41,031 nucleotides of DNA from Clostridia bacterium (GTDB lineage Bacteria; Bacillota; Clostridia; Oscillospirales; Acutalibacteraceae): positions 1 to 41,031 of the forward strand of contig JAFSDL010000036.1 of assembly GCA_017436285.1 (NCBI GenBank), read 5' to 3'. Positions within the stretch are counted from its first letter, which is position 1. The number at the start of each line of letters is the position of its first letter. Under the pieces are notes generated by a model. The model made no database searches. It was not told the DNA's origin and worked only from the letters and a program-made list of their open reading frames with translations. Of this stretch, positions 32,360 through 36,945 are shown in pieces. The translations under genes and the position numbers were made by a program.

Positions 32360-32896
32360 ATGAATTTATTAATTAAAAGACGACAGCTTATTCTTGCAAC
32401 ACTTGTTGTGGCTTTAGGTGCGGCAGTGTTTGTGAATTGGTACTACACAGGCAATAATTCAACAATTCAGTCACCTGAGCAAACAACCGAAAGCGATTAT
32501 GTGCAAAATCTTGGTGAAGCAAAATATGTTAATGCCTCAGGTGAGGAGGCAGATTATTTCAGTGAGGTTAAGCTTAATCGTCAGAAATCAAGGGACGAGG
32601 CGTTAGATAAGCTTAATAAATCCCTTGAAAAAGCAAAAAGCGGAAGCGATGAAGCCAAAGAAATAACAAAATCAATTGATGAGCTTACCGCTCAGATAAA
32701 GCTCGAAAGTGATGTGGAAGCTCTCATTTCCGCAAAGCTTGCAAGTGAATGTGTTGCAGTTATCAATGAAAAATCCGCACAGATTGTAGTTTCAAAGGAT
32801 TCCTTAAGCGATGACGCCACTCTGCAGATAATTGATGTTATAACAACAAATACCGAGCTGACAGCAGATAAAATTAAAATAACCGAATCCAAATAA
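32360..32896 (+). CDS. spoIIIAH: SpoIIIAH
   Basis: 178 residues: one N-terminal membrane helix (about 10-28), a charged helical linker with 'LGEAKYVNASGEEADYFSEVKLNRQKSRDEALDKL', and a C-terminal YscJ/ring-building domain with 'SECVAVINEKSAQIVVSKDSLSDDATLQIIDVI'. SpoIIIAH binds SpoIIQ across the intermembrane space in sporulating cells. ATG 32360 has GGAGGG eight bases upstream; an upstream in-frame start does not. It stands 289 bp from spoIIIAG instead of the usual close linkage. Confidence 0.95.
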   Translation: MNLLIKRRQLILATLVVALGAAVFVNWYYTGNNSTIQSPEQTTESDYVQNLGEAKYVNASGEEADYFSEVKLNRQKSRDEALDKLNKSLEKAKSGSDEAKEITKSIDELTAQIKLESDVEALISAKLASECVAVINEKSAQIVVSKDSLSDDATLQIIDVITTNTELTADKIKITESK

Positions 32897-33054
32897 TGTT
32901 CAATAAATGTCAGTAAAAAGCAGGAAAATGTAGAGAGAATGTTCATAACTTGCGAAAAAATGTTCAAAACTCATCAAAAATTTTTTCACAAAAACTATAT
33001 TGATATTGATTTTTTCTACTACTTCTATCTATTTTTATATTTATATTGGCTAAA

Positions 33055-33094
33055 TTCGGTAGCGTTCGGTAGCGTTCGGTAGCGTTTGGTAGCA
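33055..33094. repeat. Four tandem 10-bp repeats
   Basis: TTCGGTAGCG three times exactly, then TTTGGTAGCA, without spacers. It lies in otherwise AT-rich DNA between spoIIIAH and the palindromic terminator. No gene is visible in 32897-33177. Confidence 0.95.
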
Positions 33095-33107
33095 GACGAA
33101 AAATAGT

Positions 33108-33136
33108 GACGGTTACGAATTCGTAGCCGTCTTTTT
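33108..33136 (+). terminator. Terminator-like palindrome, copy C
   Basis: A 24-base near-perfect palindrome (GACGG, a wobble pair, TACGAA/TTCGTA, CCGTC) followed by T5 on the plus strand. The same sequence occurs at 34058, 35341 and 36253. Here it is free-standing, downstream of spoIIIAH. Confidence 0.85.
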
Positions 33137-33143
33137 CTAAAAT

Positions 33144-33172
33144 AAAAAAACTCTACGAAAAAATCCGTAGAG
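33144..33172 (-). terminator. Terminator of the first Fic operon
   Basis: On the minus strand CTCTACG / CGTAGAG around an 8-nt loop, followed by T7. It lies just after the fic stop codon. Confidence 0.85.
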
Positions 33173-33177
33173 TAAGT

Positions 33178-33768
33178 TTAATGTTTAACATGATTCTTGA
33201 ATATTTCTTTAAGGTAATCTGTAATACCATTTGCAGAATGTATTGTTGCAACCATAAGCTCATCGGTATCTATTTCAGAAAAGTTTATGTCATAACCATT
33301 AAAGCGTATAAGCTGTGCAATAAAAATTCTTTGTGTTCTGCCATTGCCTTCTCTGAAAGGGTGAAGCATATTAGTTGAACAGTAAAAATCAACTATGTTG
33401 TCAATAAAATCATCAAAATCAAGATTTTTAAAATAGTTATTATCCTTTAATCTTTTAAAGCAAGCGTTGGCAATTGTTTCAATATTTTCTGCTTGTGTAA
33501 AGCTTGTTCCTTTTTTAGAAATATCAACAGTTCTGATTTTTCCTGCCCATTCATATAAATCTTCAAATAAGTATTTGTGTATTTGCTTATAATGTTCAAA
33601 ATCAAAAGAGTTGCTTGTAGGGTTTCTTTCTAATTCAGCAGTTTTCGCTAATGTGATACCGGCTTCAAGTTTTGCAAGTTGTTCTTCGTTTTGTATATTG
33701 AACTTGTTAACAAGACAACTTGTACCTTCATAATAATCGTCAGTTAAGGCTGTAATAGTATAACTCAT
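33178..33768 (-). CDS. Fic-domain protein (toxin of a Fic toxin-antitoxin pair), first copy
   Basis: 196 residues. The Fic motif HPFREGNGRTQR starts at His136; all catalytic residues of an AMP-transferase are present. The beta-hairpin flap preceding it ('FDFEHYKQIHKYLFEDLYEWAGKIRTVDISKKGTSF') is typical. It should attach AMP to a target protein hydroxyl and halt growth when unneutralised. I set the start at ATG 33768, which shares one base with the antitoxin stop (TAATG), rather than 26 codons upstream inside the antitoxin gene. No inhibitory helix is visible within the protein itself; the antitoxin supplies it, so this is a class I Fic. Confidence 0.93.
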   Translation of the reverse strand: MSYTITALTDDYYEGTSCLVNKFNIQNEEQLAKLEAGITLAKTAELERNPTSNSFDFEHYKQIHKYLFEDLYEWAGKIRTVDISKKGTSFTQAENIETIANACFKRLKDNNYFKNLDFDDFIDNIVDFYCSTNMLHPFREGNGRTQRIFIAQLIRFNGYDINFSEIDTDELMVATIHSANGITDYLKEIFKNHVKH

Positions 33769-33929
33769 TATGCGACACCAACCGATTGCTTTATAAGTGA
33801 AATATACTGTTCCATTGATATTTCTTTGTTGAGTAGCTTTCTGCATAAATCTTTGCTTTGTTCATCAATTGAAAAACCTTCCATTTCAACAGATGCAGCA
33901 GCATTTTCTATTGCTTTATCAATAGACAT
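33768..33929 (-). CDS. Fic antitoxin (VbhA-like), 53 aa
   Basis: A short gene of 53 codons, MSIDKAIENAAASVEMEGFS... to ...GVA-stop. It contains S-V-E-M-E-G, an exact (S/T)xxxE(G/N) inhibitory motif whose Glu blocks ATP binding in class I Fic toxins. The length and the helical pattern after the motif ('SKDLCRKLLNKEISMEQYISLIKQS') fit VbhA/FicA-type antitoxins. The ribosome binding site is GAGGTGA, and it shares one base with the fic start. The motif position (residues ~13-18) agrees with its partner at 35436. Not recognised by length filters alone, but the evidence is strong. Confidence 0.9.
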   Translation of the reverse strand: MSIDKAIENAAASVEMEGFSIDEQSKDLCRKLLNKEISMEQYISLIKQSVGVA

Positions 33930-34005
33930 ATATTTCACCTCGCTTTTTATCTAATATACCACAATCCATAGTTATTATCAAGTGTTTATTGTTTGTTGTT
34001 TTCTA

Positions 34006-34282
34006 TCTGCCTACCCGTATGGTCAATTTCATAATTATCCCAATAAATAAGCTCACTGACGGTTACGAATTCGTAGCCGTCTTTTTGTAATTTAGTAAGG
34101 ATTTTATCAAGTGCCTCGGGTGTATTTTCAACTCCGTTATGAAACAGTATAATTGAACCGTTCTGCACTGTATTAACCACGCGATTATACATTTTGTAAA
34201 CAGAAAGCAGCTTCCAATCCAAAGAGTCAACACTTAATAAAATGGTACATTGTTGTATATATGTAGAGCATAATAAAATCAA
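34006..34282 (-). pseudogene. Truncated duplicate of the polysaccharide deacetylase gene
   Basis: Bases 34006-34228 align without gaps to 36201-36423, the 3' end of the full deacetylase gene. The encoded ~75 residues ('DSLDWKLLSV..MYNRVVN.VQNGSI.LFHNGVENTPEALDKILTKLQKDGYEFV...') are almost identical, with a mostly synonymous spread of changes. The NodB core (metal-binding Asp/His residues) is missing and the first ~20 residues of the open frame are unrelated, so it cannot be a working deacetylase. It is a partial duplication, possibly carried with the fic module. Confidence 0.85.
34058..34086 (+). terminator. Terminator-like palindrome, copy B (inside the deacetylase duplicate)
   Basis: Same 24-base palindrome plus T5 as the other three copies. 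It lies in the deacetylase fragment, in the codons for 'DGYEFVTV'. Confidence 0.8.
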
Positions 34283-34289
34283 AAAACGA

Positions 34290-34320
34290 TTGGTCAGGAT
34301 TTCTCATGATCAACCTTTTT
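34290..34320. terminator. Hairpin after the XRE gene
   Basis: ATTGGTCA...TGATCAAC around a short loop, with T-runs on both strands (CCTTTTT on plus, CGTTTTTT on minus). The pairing includes wobbles, so it is a weaker candidate. Confidence 0.55.
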
Positions 34321-34323
34321 ATA

Positions 34324-34530
34324 TTAGTCTGCTTTATCGGTTCTGTCTAATAGATAATCAATAGTAACATTGTAATAATCTGCTAATTTTATTAATATTT
34401 CAGCAGTTAAAGATATTACACCTGTTTCATATTGAGAGTATGTGTTTTGTGAAACATTTAAATACTTCGCAATATCTTTTTGTTTAATATCTCTGTCTTC
34501 TCTGATATTTTTCAAATTTTTAAAAACCAT
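34324..34530 (-). CDS. XRE-family transcriptional repressor (68 aa)
   Basis: A small single-domain Cro/CI-type helix-turn-helix protein: 'LKNIREDRDIKQKDIAKYLNVSQNTYSQYETGVISLTAEILIKLADYYNVTIDYLLDRTD'. The 'IAKYLNVSQNTYSQYE' part is the HTH. The ATG at 34530 has GGTGA upstream; a GTG three codons before (34539) overlaps it. It is divergent from the lipoprotein at 34629, and the 98-bp gap carries two palindromic operators and a consensus promoter. It most likely represses the lipoprotein gene and itself. Confidence 0.94.
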   Translation of the reverse strand: MVFKNLKNIREDRDIKQKDIAKYLNVSQNTYSQYETGVISLTAEILIKLADYYNVTIDYLLDRTDKAD

Positions 34531-34556
34531 TTTCTTCACCGCTATTTATTATGCGG

Positions 34557-34602
34557 TATCTGTAATAAAGATATTGACTTTTATCTGTAATACAGATATA
34601 AT
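34557..34602. promoter_or_regulatory. Promoter with two palindromic operators between XRE and lipoprotein genes
   Basis: The operators are TATCTGTAATAAAGATA (34557-34573, one mismatch) and TATCTGTAATACAGATA (34582-34598, perfect 8+1+8 palindrome), with centres 25 bp apart. The lipoprotein promoter is TTGACT (34574-34579), 17-bp spacer, TATAAT (34597-34602). The second operator fills the spacer, so a bound repressor would block RNA polymerase. Confidence 0.85.
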
Positions 34603-34628
34603 ATTGTTAAAACTTGGAGGTGTTATTA

Positions 34629-35285
34629 GTGAATAAAGTTATGTGCATTTTGTTGATTATTGGTGTTTTATTTTCGTTTGTTTCTTGTGATATATCGAAA
34701 AACGAAATTGTTAATCAAAATTATCAAACACAAAGCGATAAGTTAAATAGTGTTGAGGAAAATAGTGTTGTCATAACAACGGGAACAGTTCCTATTGAGG
34801 ATTTTGAGTTTAGATATGGGTGTTGGGGGGATGATATGGCTGAAATAAAAAAACGCGAAGAGTGCGAGTTTTTGGGTGAAACAGAGGATAATTTAGTATT
34901 TGAAGGATCGTTATTAGGTTATGATTGTAGTATAGTTTATCAATTCGATAGTAATAAATTGTTTGGTGGGGGATATATATTTGACGGTATTTTTACAAAT
35001 GCAGGTCAATATATTGTAGCTTACAATGCAATGAAAGAAGAACTTAATGAAAAATACGGAGAACCAGTTACTGATGAGGTTGTTAAAATGCAAAATGATA
35101 ACTTGATAGAAGCGGCTGGTGCTGCTAATGCACTTGAGTATGGCTATGTTGCCTATAAAACTTGCTGGGAAACCGAAAATACTGAGATAACAATGGGTAT
35201 GATGTCTGAAAACTATTCGGTTAGGATTGTGCTGAATTATACTGACATAGACTATGAAGTAAATGATGATGTTGTAGGCTTTTGA
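34629..35285 (+). CDS. Secreted lipoprotein of unknown function (218 aa)
   Basis: Probable GTG start at 34629, six bases after GGAGGTG. The signal peptide ends in FVSC, with Cys20 as lipid anchor. The mature domain contains 'FRYGCWGDDMAEIKKREECEFLGETEDNLVFEGSLLGYDCSIVYQFD', 'YNAMKEELNEKYGEPV' and 'GMMSENYSVRIVLNYTDIDYE'. This is an arrangement I have seen in unnamed Clostridia surface lipoproteins, but I cannot name the domain. It is controlled by the divergent XRE repressor through two operators and terminates at palindrome copy D. Being regulated with Fic modules on both sides hints at a mobile accessory patch. Confidence 0.88.
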   Translation: MNKVMCILLIIGVLFSFVSCDISKNEIVNQNYQTQSDKLNSVEENSVVITTGTVPIEDFEFRYGCWGDDMAEIKKREECEFLGETEDNLVFEGSLLGYDCSIVYQFDSNKLFGGGYIFDGIFTNAGQYIVAYNAMKEELNEKYGEPVTDEVVKMQNDNLIEAAGAANALEYGYVAYKTCWETENTEITMGMMSENYSVRIVLNYTDIDYEVNDDVVGF

Positions 35286-35340
35286 TTTTGTGAATAGGTT
35301 AATCTAATTTATAATATAATCTTACGGAATTAAACTCACT

Positions 35341-35369
35341 GACGGTTACGAATTCGTAGCCGTCTTTTT
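35341..35369 (+). terminator. Terminator-like palindrome, copy D (lipoprotein terminator)
   Basis: Same 24-base palindrome with T5, 56 bp after the lipoprotein stop. The preceding bases 'aactcac' and the following G also match the copy in the deacetylase gene. Confidence 0.88.
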
Positions 35370-35435
35370 GCGATTTTTCGGTTGATATATTCTTTCGTTT
35401 ATGATATAATATAGTCAGAAATGAGGTGGCATTTT

Positions 35436-35603
35436 ATGAGTGAAATTGAACGTATTATCAATGAGGTTGATAGCTCAATGTCTATGGAGGGCTTACCACT
35501 TACAAATGCAGATAAAGAACGAATTTCAGTTTGTCTTAACAATCCTAAAATGCTTGATAGTATGATTAATGAATTGTTGAACAAACATAAGGTTAATGCA
35601 TAA
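35436..35603 (+). CDS. Fic antitoxin (VbhA-like), 55 aa
   Basis: MSEIERIINEVDSSMSMEGL... carries S-M-S-M-E-G, an exact (S/T)xxxE(G/N) inhibitory motif (residues 14-19), followed by a helical C-terminus 'DKERISVCLNNPKMLDSMINELL'. ATG 35436 is preferred to an earlier in-frame ATG because GAGGTGG lies eight bases before it. It ends three bases before the fic gene, so the pair is translationally coupled. Sequence similarity to the 33768 antitoxin is limited to the motif and general plan, so the two pairs are not recent duplicates of each other. Confidence 0.9.
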   Translation: MSEIERIINEVDSSMSMEGLPLTNADKERISVCLNNPKMLDSMINELLNKHKVNA

Positions 35604-35606
35604 GCT

Positions 35607-36200
35607 ATGAAGAGTTACAGTTATGACTATGAGTGGGATATTGAATATTGCTATCCTGATTCCAATGTTTTGAAAAATAAACTTAATATTACTAATTCGG
35701 AAGATTTAGCAATCGCTGAACGAGAAATAACCTCAATCAAATTAGCTTACGCAAAGCAAAATATTATTGAGGGTGATTTTGATTTTTCACATTTGAAGAA
35801 GATACACCGGTTTCTTTTTGAAGATATTTATGACTGGGCAGGAGAATATCGTCATGTTAATATTTCAAAAGGAAATCAGTTTTGCTTGTGGCAGAATTTA
35901 GAATCTTATGCTGATACTGTTTTTTCATCTTTGAAGAAAGAAAATTATTTGAAGAATTGCGATAATATTGCAGAAAGATTAGCTTATTATCTCAGCGAAA
36001 TAAATGTTTTGCACCCTTTCAGAGAAGGGAATGGCAGAACCCAAAGATTGTTTATTGAATATCTTGCTTTGAATGCAGGATATAGGGTTGATTTTTCGTC
36101 TGTTACTCCTGAAGAAATGATTGTTGCAAGTGCAGAGTCCTTTACTTGCGAATACGATAAAATCAACGAAATGTTTAAGAGAATAACAACTAAGCTTTAA
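35607..36200 (+). CDS. Fic-domain protein (toxin), second copy
   Basis: 197 residues with the complete motif HPFREGNGRTQR starting at His136, the same residue number as in the first copy. Upstream, 'FDFSHLKKIHRFLFEDIYDWAGEYRHVNISKGNQF' is the family-typical flap region. It is predicted to AMPylate a target and to be held inactive by the antitoxin gene just before it. Only partly similar to the first Fic. It ends inside the 3' end of the convergent deacetylase gene (11-bp overlap), and the U-rich palindrome that would end its mRNA lies within that gene. Confidence 0.93.
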   Translation: MKSYSYDYEWDIEYCYPDSNVLKNKLNITNSEDLAIAEREITSIKLAYAKQNIIEGDFDFSHLKKIHRFLFEDIYDWAGEYRHVNISKGNQFCLWQNLESYADTVFSSLKKENYLKNCDNIAERLAYYLSEINVLHPFREGNGRTQRLFIEYLALNAGYRVDFSSVTPEEMIVASAESFTCEYDKINEMFKRITTKL

Positions 36201-36945
36201 TCTGCCTACCCGTATGGTCAATTTCATAATTATCCCAATAAATAAGCTCACTGACGGTTACGAATTCGTAGCCGTCTTTTTGTAATTTAGTAAGGATTTT
36301 ATCAAGTGCTTCGGGTGTGTTTTCAACTCCGTTGTGGAATAAAACAATTGACCCGTTTTGCACCTTGTTAACCACACGATTATACATTTCATCAACGGAA
36401 AGCAATTTCCAGTCCAAACTGTCGCAATCCCATTGAATTGTTTTCATACCAAGGCTATCTGCCACCTCTATGCTCTTGTTGTCATAGTCGCCGCTTGGGG
36501 CTCTCACAAGCCTTGGTGCAACACCTGTTATTGCTTCAATTTTCTTGTTGCAGTTAAGTATTTCCTGCTTTATTTCCTCACGACTTATCTTGCTGAATGC
36601 TGCGTGAGTGTCGGAATGATTTGCCATTTCGTGACCATTTTTATGAAATTTCTTTACTGCATCAGGGTTTTTCTCAACCCAGTCGCCAACTGCAAATATA
36701 GTGGCTTTTGCATTGTGCTTTTTCAGTATTTCAATAAGCTCATCGGTGTCCTCGGCACTCCACGCCGCATCAAAGGTAATTGCAATTTTTTTCTCGTCGG
36801 TTTCTACGGAGTAAATCGGTAATTTTCTTGTTGTATTACTGACCTTAACGCCAATATGTGAAATGGTAACAGTTGAAATAATTGTGAGCGCGAGAAGAGA
36901 AAAAACAATAAAAAGTGAGCTTATTCTAATAACCTTAAATTTCAA
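36190..36945 (-). CDS. Polysaccharide deacetylase, PdaB-like (NodB domain)
   Basis: 251 residues. One N-terminal membrane helix (about 8-28) and a NodB domain: TFDAAWSAEDT (motif 1, the Asp being the base), 'NHSDTHAAF' with the metal-binding H-x(3)-H, 'RAPSGDYD', 'DCDSLDWK' and 'LFHNG'. The 'ITFDAAW' variant is typical of sporulation-linked PdaB-like enzymes, which deacetylate peptidoglycan or other GlcNAc polymers. Start appears to be TTG, with GAGGTGG at 36950-36956 only 4-5 bases ahead and located inside the upstream terminator stem. Its last ~75 codons are duplicated at 34006-34228. Confidence 0.9.
   Translation of the reverse strand: MKFKVIRISSLFIVFSLLALTIISTVTISHIGVKVSNTTRKLPIYSVETDEKKIAITFDAAWSAEDTDELIEILKKHNAKATIFAVGDWVEKNPDAVKKFHKNGHEMANHSDTHAAFSKISREEIKQEILNCNKKIEAITGVAPRLVRAPSGDYDNKSIEVADSLGMKTIQWDCDSLDWKLLSVDEMYNRVVNKVQNGSIVLFHNGVENTPEALDKILTKLQKDGYEFVTVSELIYWDNYEIDHTGRQIKA
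36253..36281 (+). terminator. Terminator-like palindrome, copy A (inside the deacetylase gene)
   Basis: The same 24-base palindrome followed by T5 on the plus strand, here within the deacetylase codons for 'DGYEFVTV'. It lies 53 bp past the fic stop and would terminate the convergent Fic transcript. Confidence 0.8.

Follow-up and report, generated by a model that had tools for sequence, protein, structure and literature searches.

Integron arrays are composed of small modules separated by foldable sites, and the dif modules of Acinetobacter plasmids are not known to have a recombinase of their own. Sections of a report on the latter describe them as small modules, some of them with toxin-antitoxin genes, located between short repeats of the Xer site (PMC6449649). 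Part of another report presents cis-mobilizable elements (CIMEs) as elements that keep att-like ends without an integrase and are stacked at the end of a target gene (PMC5704250). With respect to toxins, class I Fic proteins are described, in sections of a third source, as those having a separate antitoxin with the motif [S/T]xxxE[G/N], and VbhT as a toxin that inactivates DNA gyrase and topoisomerase IV through adenylylation (PMC5033356). The subject of this work is a locus on a 41,031-nucleotide stretch from a Clostridia bacterium (assembly GCA_017436285.1, contig JAFSDL010000036.1), called here the window in its whole length, in which two Fic toxin-antitoxin (FicTA) pairs lie at the 3′ end of pdaB, a gene for a sporulation polysaccharide deacetylase. 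The locus is probably a chromosomal array of small cassettes, bounded by a terminator-shaped palindrome (the core) that belongs to the pdaB coding sequence, and formed by decayed integrative elements together with homologous exchange.

In behaviour, dif modules and CIME accretion are the closest known systems. As far as the Acinetobacter modules are described in that report, the pdaB array shares with them the small modules, some of them toxin-antitoxin pairs, and the short repeats as borders; however, its repeat is unlike the palindrome found beside xer, lies at one chromosomal gene, keeps the same orientation in the window and is terminator-shaped. The traits shared with CIMEs and tandem accretion, in the terms of that account, are att-like ends, no integrase and stacking at the 3′ end of a gene: the units lie between att-like direct repeats, and the target gene keeps its end. 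The differences are that the units of the pdaB array measure about 0.4–2.8 kb, mostly with one or two transcription units each, that the boundary is palindromic and apparently conserved as a terminator shape, and that the units are re-assorted between species. The likeness to integrons, taken from their general description and not against a model, consists of small modules between foldable sites, whereas pdaB arrays have no recombinase-family match inside, their sites are 24 bp long and conserved in sequence, and their genes face both ways. As for an IntI-type integrase, no Phage_integrase match was found on the window contig or within the arrays of the genus.

The pdaB array of the window

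The array is delimited by the following features:

36190..36945, minus strand: pdaB-type sporulation polysaccharide deacetylase gene, host of the array (TIGR02764 PdaB, E 8.6e-65, 218 bits, below the cut-off of 237; Polysacc_deac_1, 1.6e-36, above cut-off)
36253..36276, plus strand: core 1, palindrome within the pdaB codons DGYEFVTV, with T5 an intrinsic-terminator shape
35341..35364, plus strand: core 2, palindrome and terminator shape past the lipoprotein-like gene
34058..34081, plus strand: core 3, palindrome within the pdaB fragment
33108..33131, plus strand: core 4, palindrome at the end of the array next to spoIIIAH
34005..34228, minus strand: pdaB 3′-end fragment, a displaced gene end (224-bp repeat, 90%; homology begins near VDSLDW)

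The 24-bp palindrome (GACGGTTACGAATTCGTAGCCGTC) is present in four exact copies starting at 33108, 34058, 35341 and 36253, all in one orientation and each followed by TTTTT on the plus strand. It had no match in 100 shuffles of the sequence, and no further core was found elsewhere in the window genome (assembly 84% complete) when up to three mismatches were allowed. The four palindromes divide the locus into three cassettes, the core-to-core spaces being 888 bp (Fic2 pair), 1259 bp (lipoprotein-like gene, XRE repressor and pdaB 3′ fragment) and 926 bp (Fic1 pair). The preliminary description of this DNA had placed an XRE repressor, a lipoprotein and a duplicated gene fragment between the Fic pairs. 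All three are there, but the account of the fragment was incomplete, since it is the 3′ end of pdaB, and the four palindromes had been missed.

Both core 1 and core 3 continue into a pdaB tail of 53 bp, with 100% identity between the two tails. The pdaB frame ahead of the array is intact, and the listed pdaB matches have no internal stops. On its other side the array joins spoIIIAH at 32896–33108; in many relatives, pdaB and its cassettes precede ferredoxin-like, rpoD-like and dnaG-like genes (named by eye). Tandem 10-bp repeats (TTCGGTAGCG) are found at 33055–33093, beside core 4 at the spoIIIAH junction.

The core as terminator-shaped coding DNA

Third codon positions show a conservation of 0.96 in the codon window that covers the core, the highest of all windows in a set of 13 pdaB genes (median 0.50), and six of these genes come from single-core genomes. 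Since the silent sites are conserved in single-core genomes too, selection seems to act on the core DNA itself and not only on the encoded protein. The plus-strand RNA of the core folds into a hairpin (10-bp stem, 4-base loop) with energies of −16.4 to −16.9 kcal/mol across the four copies, and the opposite strand folds less well (−12.4 kcal/mol, core 1 only). A terminator scan recovered the four cores and one terminator of Fic1, five in all against 1.9 expected (standard deviation 1.2). The palindrome with its T-run thus has what looks like an intrinsic-terminator shape antisense to pdaB, for transcription heading into this gene, apparently kept at silent sites even in genomes without a cassette.

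Of 290 stem-pair cells, 39 are non-Watson-Crick, and 36 of them still pair on the antisense strand only, one on the sense strand only and two on neither strand, the last two belonging to G005. A single pair, 6–19, makes up 27 of the 36, and the distinct changes are therefore four (antisense), one (sense) and two (neither). In the G005 core (L028:1682-1705) both stem arms are altered. This genome has no cassettes. The gene next to pdaB is co-oriented with it, so an antisense terminator may be dispensable there, yet in G012, whose next gene is likewise co-oriented, the core is intact. Promoter-like sites are not enriched in the region (19 against 20.0 in shuffles). One of them follows core 2 closely and another precedes the Fic1 pair, and together with the terminator shapes they make a cassette look like a complete transcription unit.

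Cores and cassettes across the genus

The core was found in 14 of the 60 genomes searched (window genome included), all of them among the 22 of the genus, with 29 copies. At least two cores are present in eight of the 22 (G000, G002, G006, G007, G008, G014, G017 and G020), which are the cassette carriers; six have one (G001, G005, G009, G012, G015 and G018) and eight have none. Every copy is assigned either to pdaB itself or to the stretch that separates it from its right-hand flank; for five of them (two on C49 of G006, one on C27 of G020 and two in G017), on contigs without a full pdaB, the position is deduced from the flanking genes. Core-bearing named records are metagenome-assembled genomes (MAGs) labelled Oscillospiraceae or Clostridia, and the RGIG ones come from the colon, rectum or cecum of deer, sheep or buffalo. 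The same palindrome is also found in the DGYEFVTV codons of two Paenibacillus deacetylases (L043 and L044; 2 of 15 stretches), matches that, by a rough estimate of our own, codon choice over many genomes could explain.

Cassettes of the window are found singly at the same locus in other species: the Fic1 cassette in G007, G014 and G008, and the Fic2 cassette in G020. Another cassette, with a repressor gene and a gene for a protein of 801 or 804 residues, is common to G008 and G020, and for the G020 version of the protein there are matches to dockerin, metallophosphatase and repeats. A small cassette is present in G008 and G017 and, in part, in G006, G014 and G020. In all five pairs computed, the cassettes are more alike than the pdaB genes of the same genomes. 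For instance, the Fic2 cassette is 89.2% identical to that of G020 over 886 bp (pdaB 69.9%), and the repressor and surface-protein cassettes of G008 and G020 are 91.3% identical over 2836 bp (pdaB 72.7%). The Fic1 cassette, compared over 832–850 bp with the tail left out, shows 85.6, 85.1 and 80.6% identity with those of G007, G014 and G008 (pdaB 74.2, 73.6 and 71.8%). Between G008 and G020 identity shifts at the core, from 66–78% in pdaB (86% in its last 50 bp) to 82–99% in the cassette; past the next core it is 82% in 50 bp, which correspond to the pdaB tail, and 46–65% beyond.

Relatives of Fic1 with at least 80% identity are present in four of the 22 genomes, every one at the pdaB locus. 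Those of 64% (G018) and 61% (G016, in which pdaB was not found) lie on other contigs, and the other matches in the genus are Fic2 copies (44–45%) and six weaker ones (33–36%). A pdaB tail of roughly 52 bp is repeated after many cores. The pdaB fragments of the window, G002, G007 and G017, as well as a decayed one in G014, share an approximate starting point at VDSLDW, and in four of these the bases upstream are similar, as would be expected if the end of pdaB had been carried or displaced by an ancestral element. Beside the fragment of G017 there is a DUF6291 gene, and G002 has a DUF6291 remnant; these two are the only traces seen that would fit a descent from an element with integrase and transfer genes. 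In G006, an inverted repeat (TTCTACCTCTCTGG, by eye) lies just within both broken array ends (C40 and C49) and perhaps belongs to an inserted transposon.

The 14 core-bearing genomes, which at this one position have no cassette, a single one or several, are a natural series for comparing addiction, cross-neutralisation and cassette exchange.

How the cassettes might move

Boundaries, conservation, re-use of cassettes between species, tail repeats and the intact pdaB frame are properties of the DNA itself, from which the following steps of movement are proposed. The cassettes may have entered one pdaB site as, or within, integrative elements that have since been stripped of their integrase, in a process of tandem accretion, and homologous recombination between the repeated pdaB ends would now swap them as well. 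Addiction to the FicTA modules could help to keep the array stable. We propose more tentatively that a terminator hairpin in the coding end of a sporulation gene doubles as an entry or exchange site for small cassettes (toxin-antitoxin pairs, a repressor with a surface protein, small genes of unknown function) with no recombinase encoded in the array, which might be a previously undescribed system in gut Clostridia. In a search of openly licensed papers, nothing on pdaB as an integration or docking site appeared among the titles and abstract openings listed. Being in frame in a sporulation gene and keeping a terminator shape, such a site would offer horizontally acquired operons an economical place to dock.

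Several observations weigh against this combination of decayed elements and homologous exchange. No tyrosine or serine recombinase is common to the cassette-bearing genomes: the single tyrosine recombinase of G020 (98% complete) is its xer-like gene, no serine recombinase was found in G008, and no array contains a match to either family, stretches lost at contig ends being unseen. A scan of viral contigs with the core pattern gave 0 matches. A shared tyrosine or serine recombinase and a phage carrying the core site were rejected as candidates on these grounds. The 22 genomes of the genus appear to be MAGs, and several arrays end at contig ends. In the window, cores 2 and 4 have no pdaB tail. 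Cores 1 and 3 lie in an identical tract of 110 bp, and the 100 bp ahead of this tract are 80% alike, which points to gene conversion rather than to clean site-specific insertion. Core centres differ within four of the eight arrays (G008, G020, G002 and G006), a fact that a strict rule of overlap identity would disfavour. Finally, spoIIIAH is followed in G007 and G009 by other sequence, unlike the junction of the window array, which is either a rearrangement or a misjoin at a repeat.

Among the alternatives, a site-specific cassette system is possible, in which a phage or an integrative element would provide, in trans, a tyrosine-type recombinase acting on the palindromes (9-bp arms and 6-bp centre), as Xer does at dif modules. 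The 29 cores contain 20 base deviations, 13 in the six central positions and seven in the 18 arm positions, and exchange units run from core to core, both in keeping with such a system; the DUF6291 gene and remnant, which we take to be linked to phage, are also in its favour. However, the loop of a terminator would vary at the centre too, no such recombinase was seen, the viral scan was empty, and the palindrome beside the xer gene of the genus differs from the core.

It is also possible, though slightly less so, that homologous recombination did everything and that the core has no recombinase: the repeated pdaB ends (core and tail, about 76–110 bp) would let flanked DNA loop out and re-enter the pdaB of another strain, and the core would be conserved only as a terminator. 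The 110-bp identity tract next to less similar flanks, the absence of a shared recombinase, and the terminator shape with its pairing on the antisense strand agree with this explanation. It accounts poorly for cores 2 and 4 of the window, where unrelated DNA begins only a few tail bases from the core and the homology amounts to about 30 bp, and for exchange boundaries so close to the core.

Ordinary tandem toxin-antitoxin modules in a generic variable spot, with palindromes acquired alongside as operon terminators, are an improbable explanation. All four cores are good terminator shapes, but the same core is found in pdaB codons and at cassette boundaries in eight genomes and was found nowhere else in them, and pdaB tails follow many cores.

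That the palindrome is the chromosomal dif and the cassettes Xer-driven integrative elements can be practically discarded, since, although six of the 22 genomes have a single tyrosine recombinase and neighbouring genes converge on the core in many relatives, the G009 switch in GC skew (10-kb windows) and gene strand coincides with the xer gene (C3, about 201 kb), 188 kb from the core at 389 kb, which rules out a dif role for the core in that genome, and the palindrome beside xer (ACTTATACAAAAT...ATTTTGTATAAGT) is a different one, the best core match there having nine substitutions.

This near-perfect palindrome was found beside xer in 14 of 17 loci (L055-L069, L074 and L075), and it is a good candidate for a symmetric dif of the lone Xer. 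The boundary repeats of the arrays do not resemble this candidate dif, and the resident Xer was rejected as a catalyst for the same reason. The sole tyrosine recombinase of G009 sits at the GC-skew switch (C3, about 201 kb).

Fic toxins and their upstream antitoxins

The Fic1 and Fic2 cassettes of the window contain the following features:

33178..33768, minus strand: Fic1 toxin, VbhT-like, 196 aa from its ATG (Pfam Fic, 7.7e-16; VbhT 3zcb, 2.6e-34)
33768..33929, minus strand: antitoxin 1, 53 aa from its ATG, with SVEMEG (Pfam VbhA, 8.1e-5, 23.0 bits, under the cut-off of 25.9)
33953..33981, minus strand: promoter-like TTGATA-17-TATATT of the Fic1 pair (10/12, TG before −10; sequence scan)
33150..33173, minus strand: terminator shape of the Fic1 operon (terminator scan)
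35382..35410, plus strand: promoter-like TTGATA-17-TATAAT of the Fic2 pair (11/12, TG before −10), just past core 2
35436..35603, plus strand: antitoxin 2, 55 aa, with SMSMEG (G020 ortholog 95% identical, dN/dS 0.032; no VbhA match)
35607..36200, plus strand: Fic2 toxin, VbhT-like, 197 aa (Pfam Fic, 1.3e-17; VbhT 3zcb, 1.8e-37)

Most of what had been described for these pairs beforehand was borne out: both Fic proteins have the motif HPFREGNGRTQR intact, with His at residue 136, both small upstream frames carry the inhibitory motif, and antitoxin 1 overlaps the Fic1 start by one base, antitoxin 2 ending 3 bp ahead of Fic2. Their orientation had been misread as convergent, the pairs facing each other, and is corrected here to divergent, the left pair being on the minus strand and the right one on the plus strand.

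VbhT is the nearest solved chain for both toxins. The FIC motif HPFx(D/E)GNGRxxR is complete, with the catalytic His and both arginines, as in class I FicTA toxins, and H136-R147 is kept in eight of eight aligned Fic proteins except for A instead of T at position 145 in one. A separate small upstream protein with [S/T]xxxE[G/N], also a class I trait, accompanies eight of eight aligned Fic1/Fic2-type genes of the genus. The Fic gene of G012, the one member of the 33–36% group covered by this comparison, has no such frame listed ahead of it. Between genomes, antitoxin 1 gives dN/dS values of 0.026–0.109 (four genomes, six pairs) and antitoxin 2, with a single pair, a value of 0.032; each pair differs by 8–20 synonymous changes. 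The small frames thus behave as genes, which supports their translation, assumed in the preliminary description.

The Pfam VbhA cut-off (25.9 bits) is passed by four of the six antitoxin 1 orthologs, window included (G014, G008, G018 and G016), the window protein and the G007 ortholog (25.7 bits) remaining below it. Direct search of solved chains did not recover VbhA for either antitoxin. Antitoxin 2 has no Pfam VbhA match, its weak matches to PhiKZ gp119 and RepB being taken as chance, and it is linked to antitoxin 1 through profile comparison alone. The earlier view that the antitoxins are alike only in the motif holds for the pair itself, for which BLASTP gives no alignment, but not for profiles built from four and six relatives: that of antitoxin 2 (relatives from G020, G037 and G169) aligns with that of antitoxin 1 over 51 columns with an hhalign probability of 94.8%, which favours two distant members of one antitoxin kind. 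The toxins are 44% identical. The proposal that two lineages were brought together fits the single occurrence of each module at the same locus elsewhere, although the evidence favours diverged lineages of one kind. The cassette structure explains how two such copies become neighbours, as separate cassettes held at one site. Among the 22 genomes of the genus, both modules were found together in the window genome only, the arrays of G020, G006 and G017 reaching contig ends.

Both pairs are intact and under coding constraint, and they look like class I (VbhTA-like) FicTA modules. By analogy with VbhT, the [S/T]xxxE[G/N] helix of each antitoxin is expected to occlude the ATP site of the cognate toxin, which on release would AMPylate DNA gyrase, topoisomerase IV or a similar target. 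With VbhTA of Bartonella and EcFicTA of Escherichia coli they share the small upstream antitoxin with its motif, the full FIC motif including the second arginine, and VbhT as nearest structure. They differ in antitoxin 2, which lacks a VbhA match and whose C-terminal half has diverged, and in that the window modules are cassettes in a Clostridia-type chromosome.

The middle cassette

Besides the pdaB fragment, the 1259-bp cassette contains:

34632..35285, plus strand: lipoprotein-like gene, 217 aa (signal assigned by eye; no family cut-off exceeded)
34574..34602, plus strand: promoter-like TTGACT-17-TATAAT of the lipoprotein-like gene (sequence scan)
34557..34599, no strand assigned: two 18-bp direct repeats (TATCTGTAATAAAGATAT-like) overlapping that promoter (repeat search)
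34324..34539, minus strand: XRE/HTH_3 repressor gene (HTH_3, 1.6e-17)

The XRE repressor is likely to use the two direct repeats as its operators.

Fic and pdaB relatives outside the arrays

No viral relatives of either Fic protein were found by pattern scan. Relatives of Fic2 are present in 13 records of a phage collection, all below 60% identity, and a plasmid search with the Fic1 pair gave nine records, none covering 80% of the pair. Antitoxins that look like fusions were noticed in two genomes. The Fic2-type toxin of G169 is preceded by a 168-residue antitoxin (L118:2079-2585, minus strand) in which a Phd/YefM-like part (1.6e-5, below cut-off) is fused to a FicA-like part with TMAMEG, and in G046 (L120:2052-2423, minus strand) an antitoxin candidate ahead of a Fic gene has a FicA-like part, with TFSVEN, fused to one that resembles HTH_17 (below cut-off). 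A 60% relative of Fic2 in G037 (L117) has a VbhA-like antitoxin (2.4e-4, below cut-off), and its neighbours include a DNA cytosine methylase-like gene and a conjugation-like membrane protein, both named by eye, the latter with no support from Pfam.

The pdaB fragment used as a query matched four viral contigs of IMG/VR (L085-L088) with 43–46% identity, and the core is absent from the examined stretches of all four. In L085 and L088, a pdaB-type gene lies directly ahead of ssb-, terminase- and portal-like genes (by eye).

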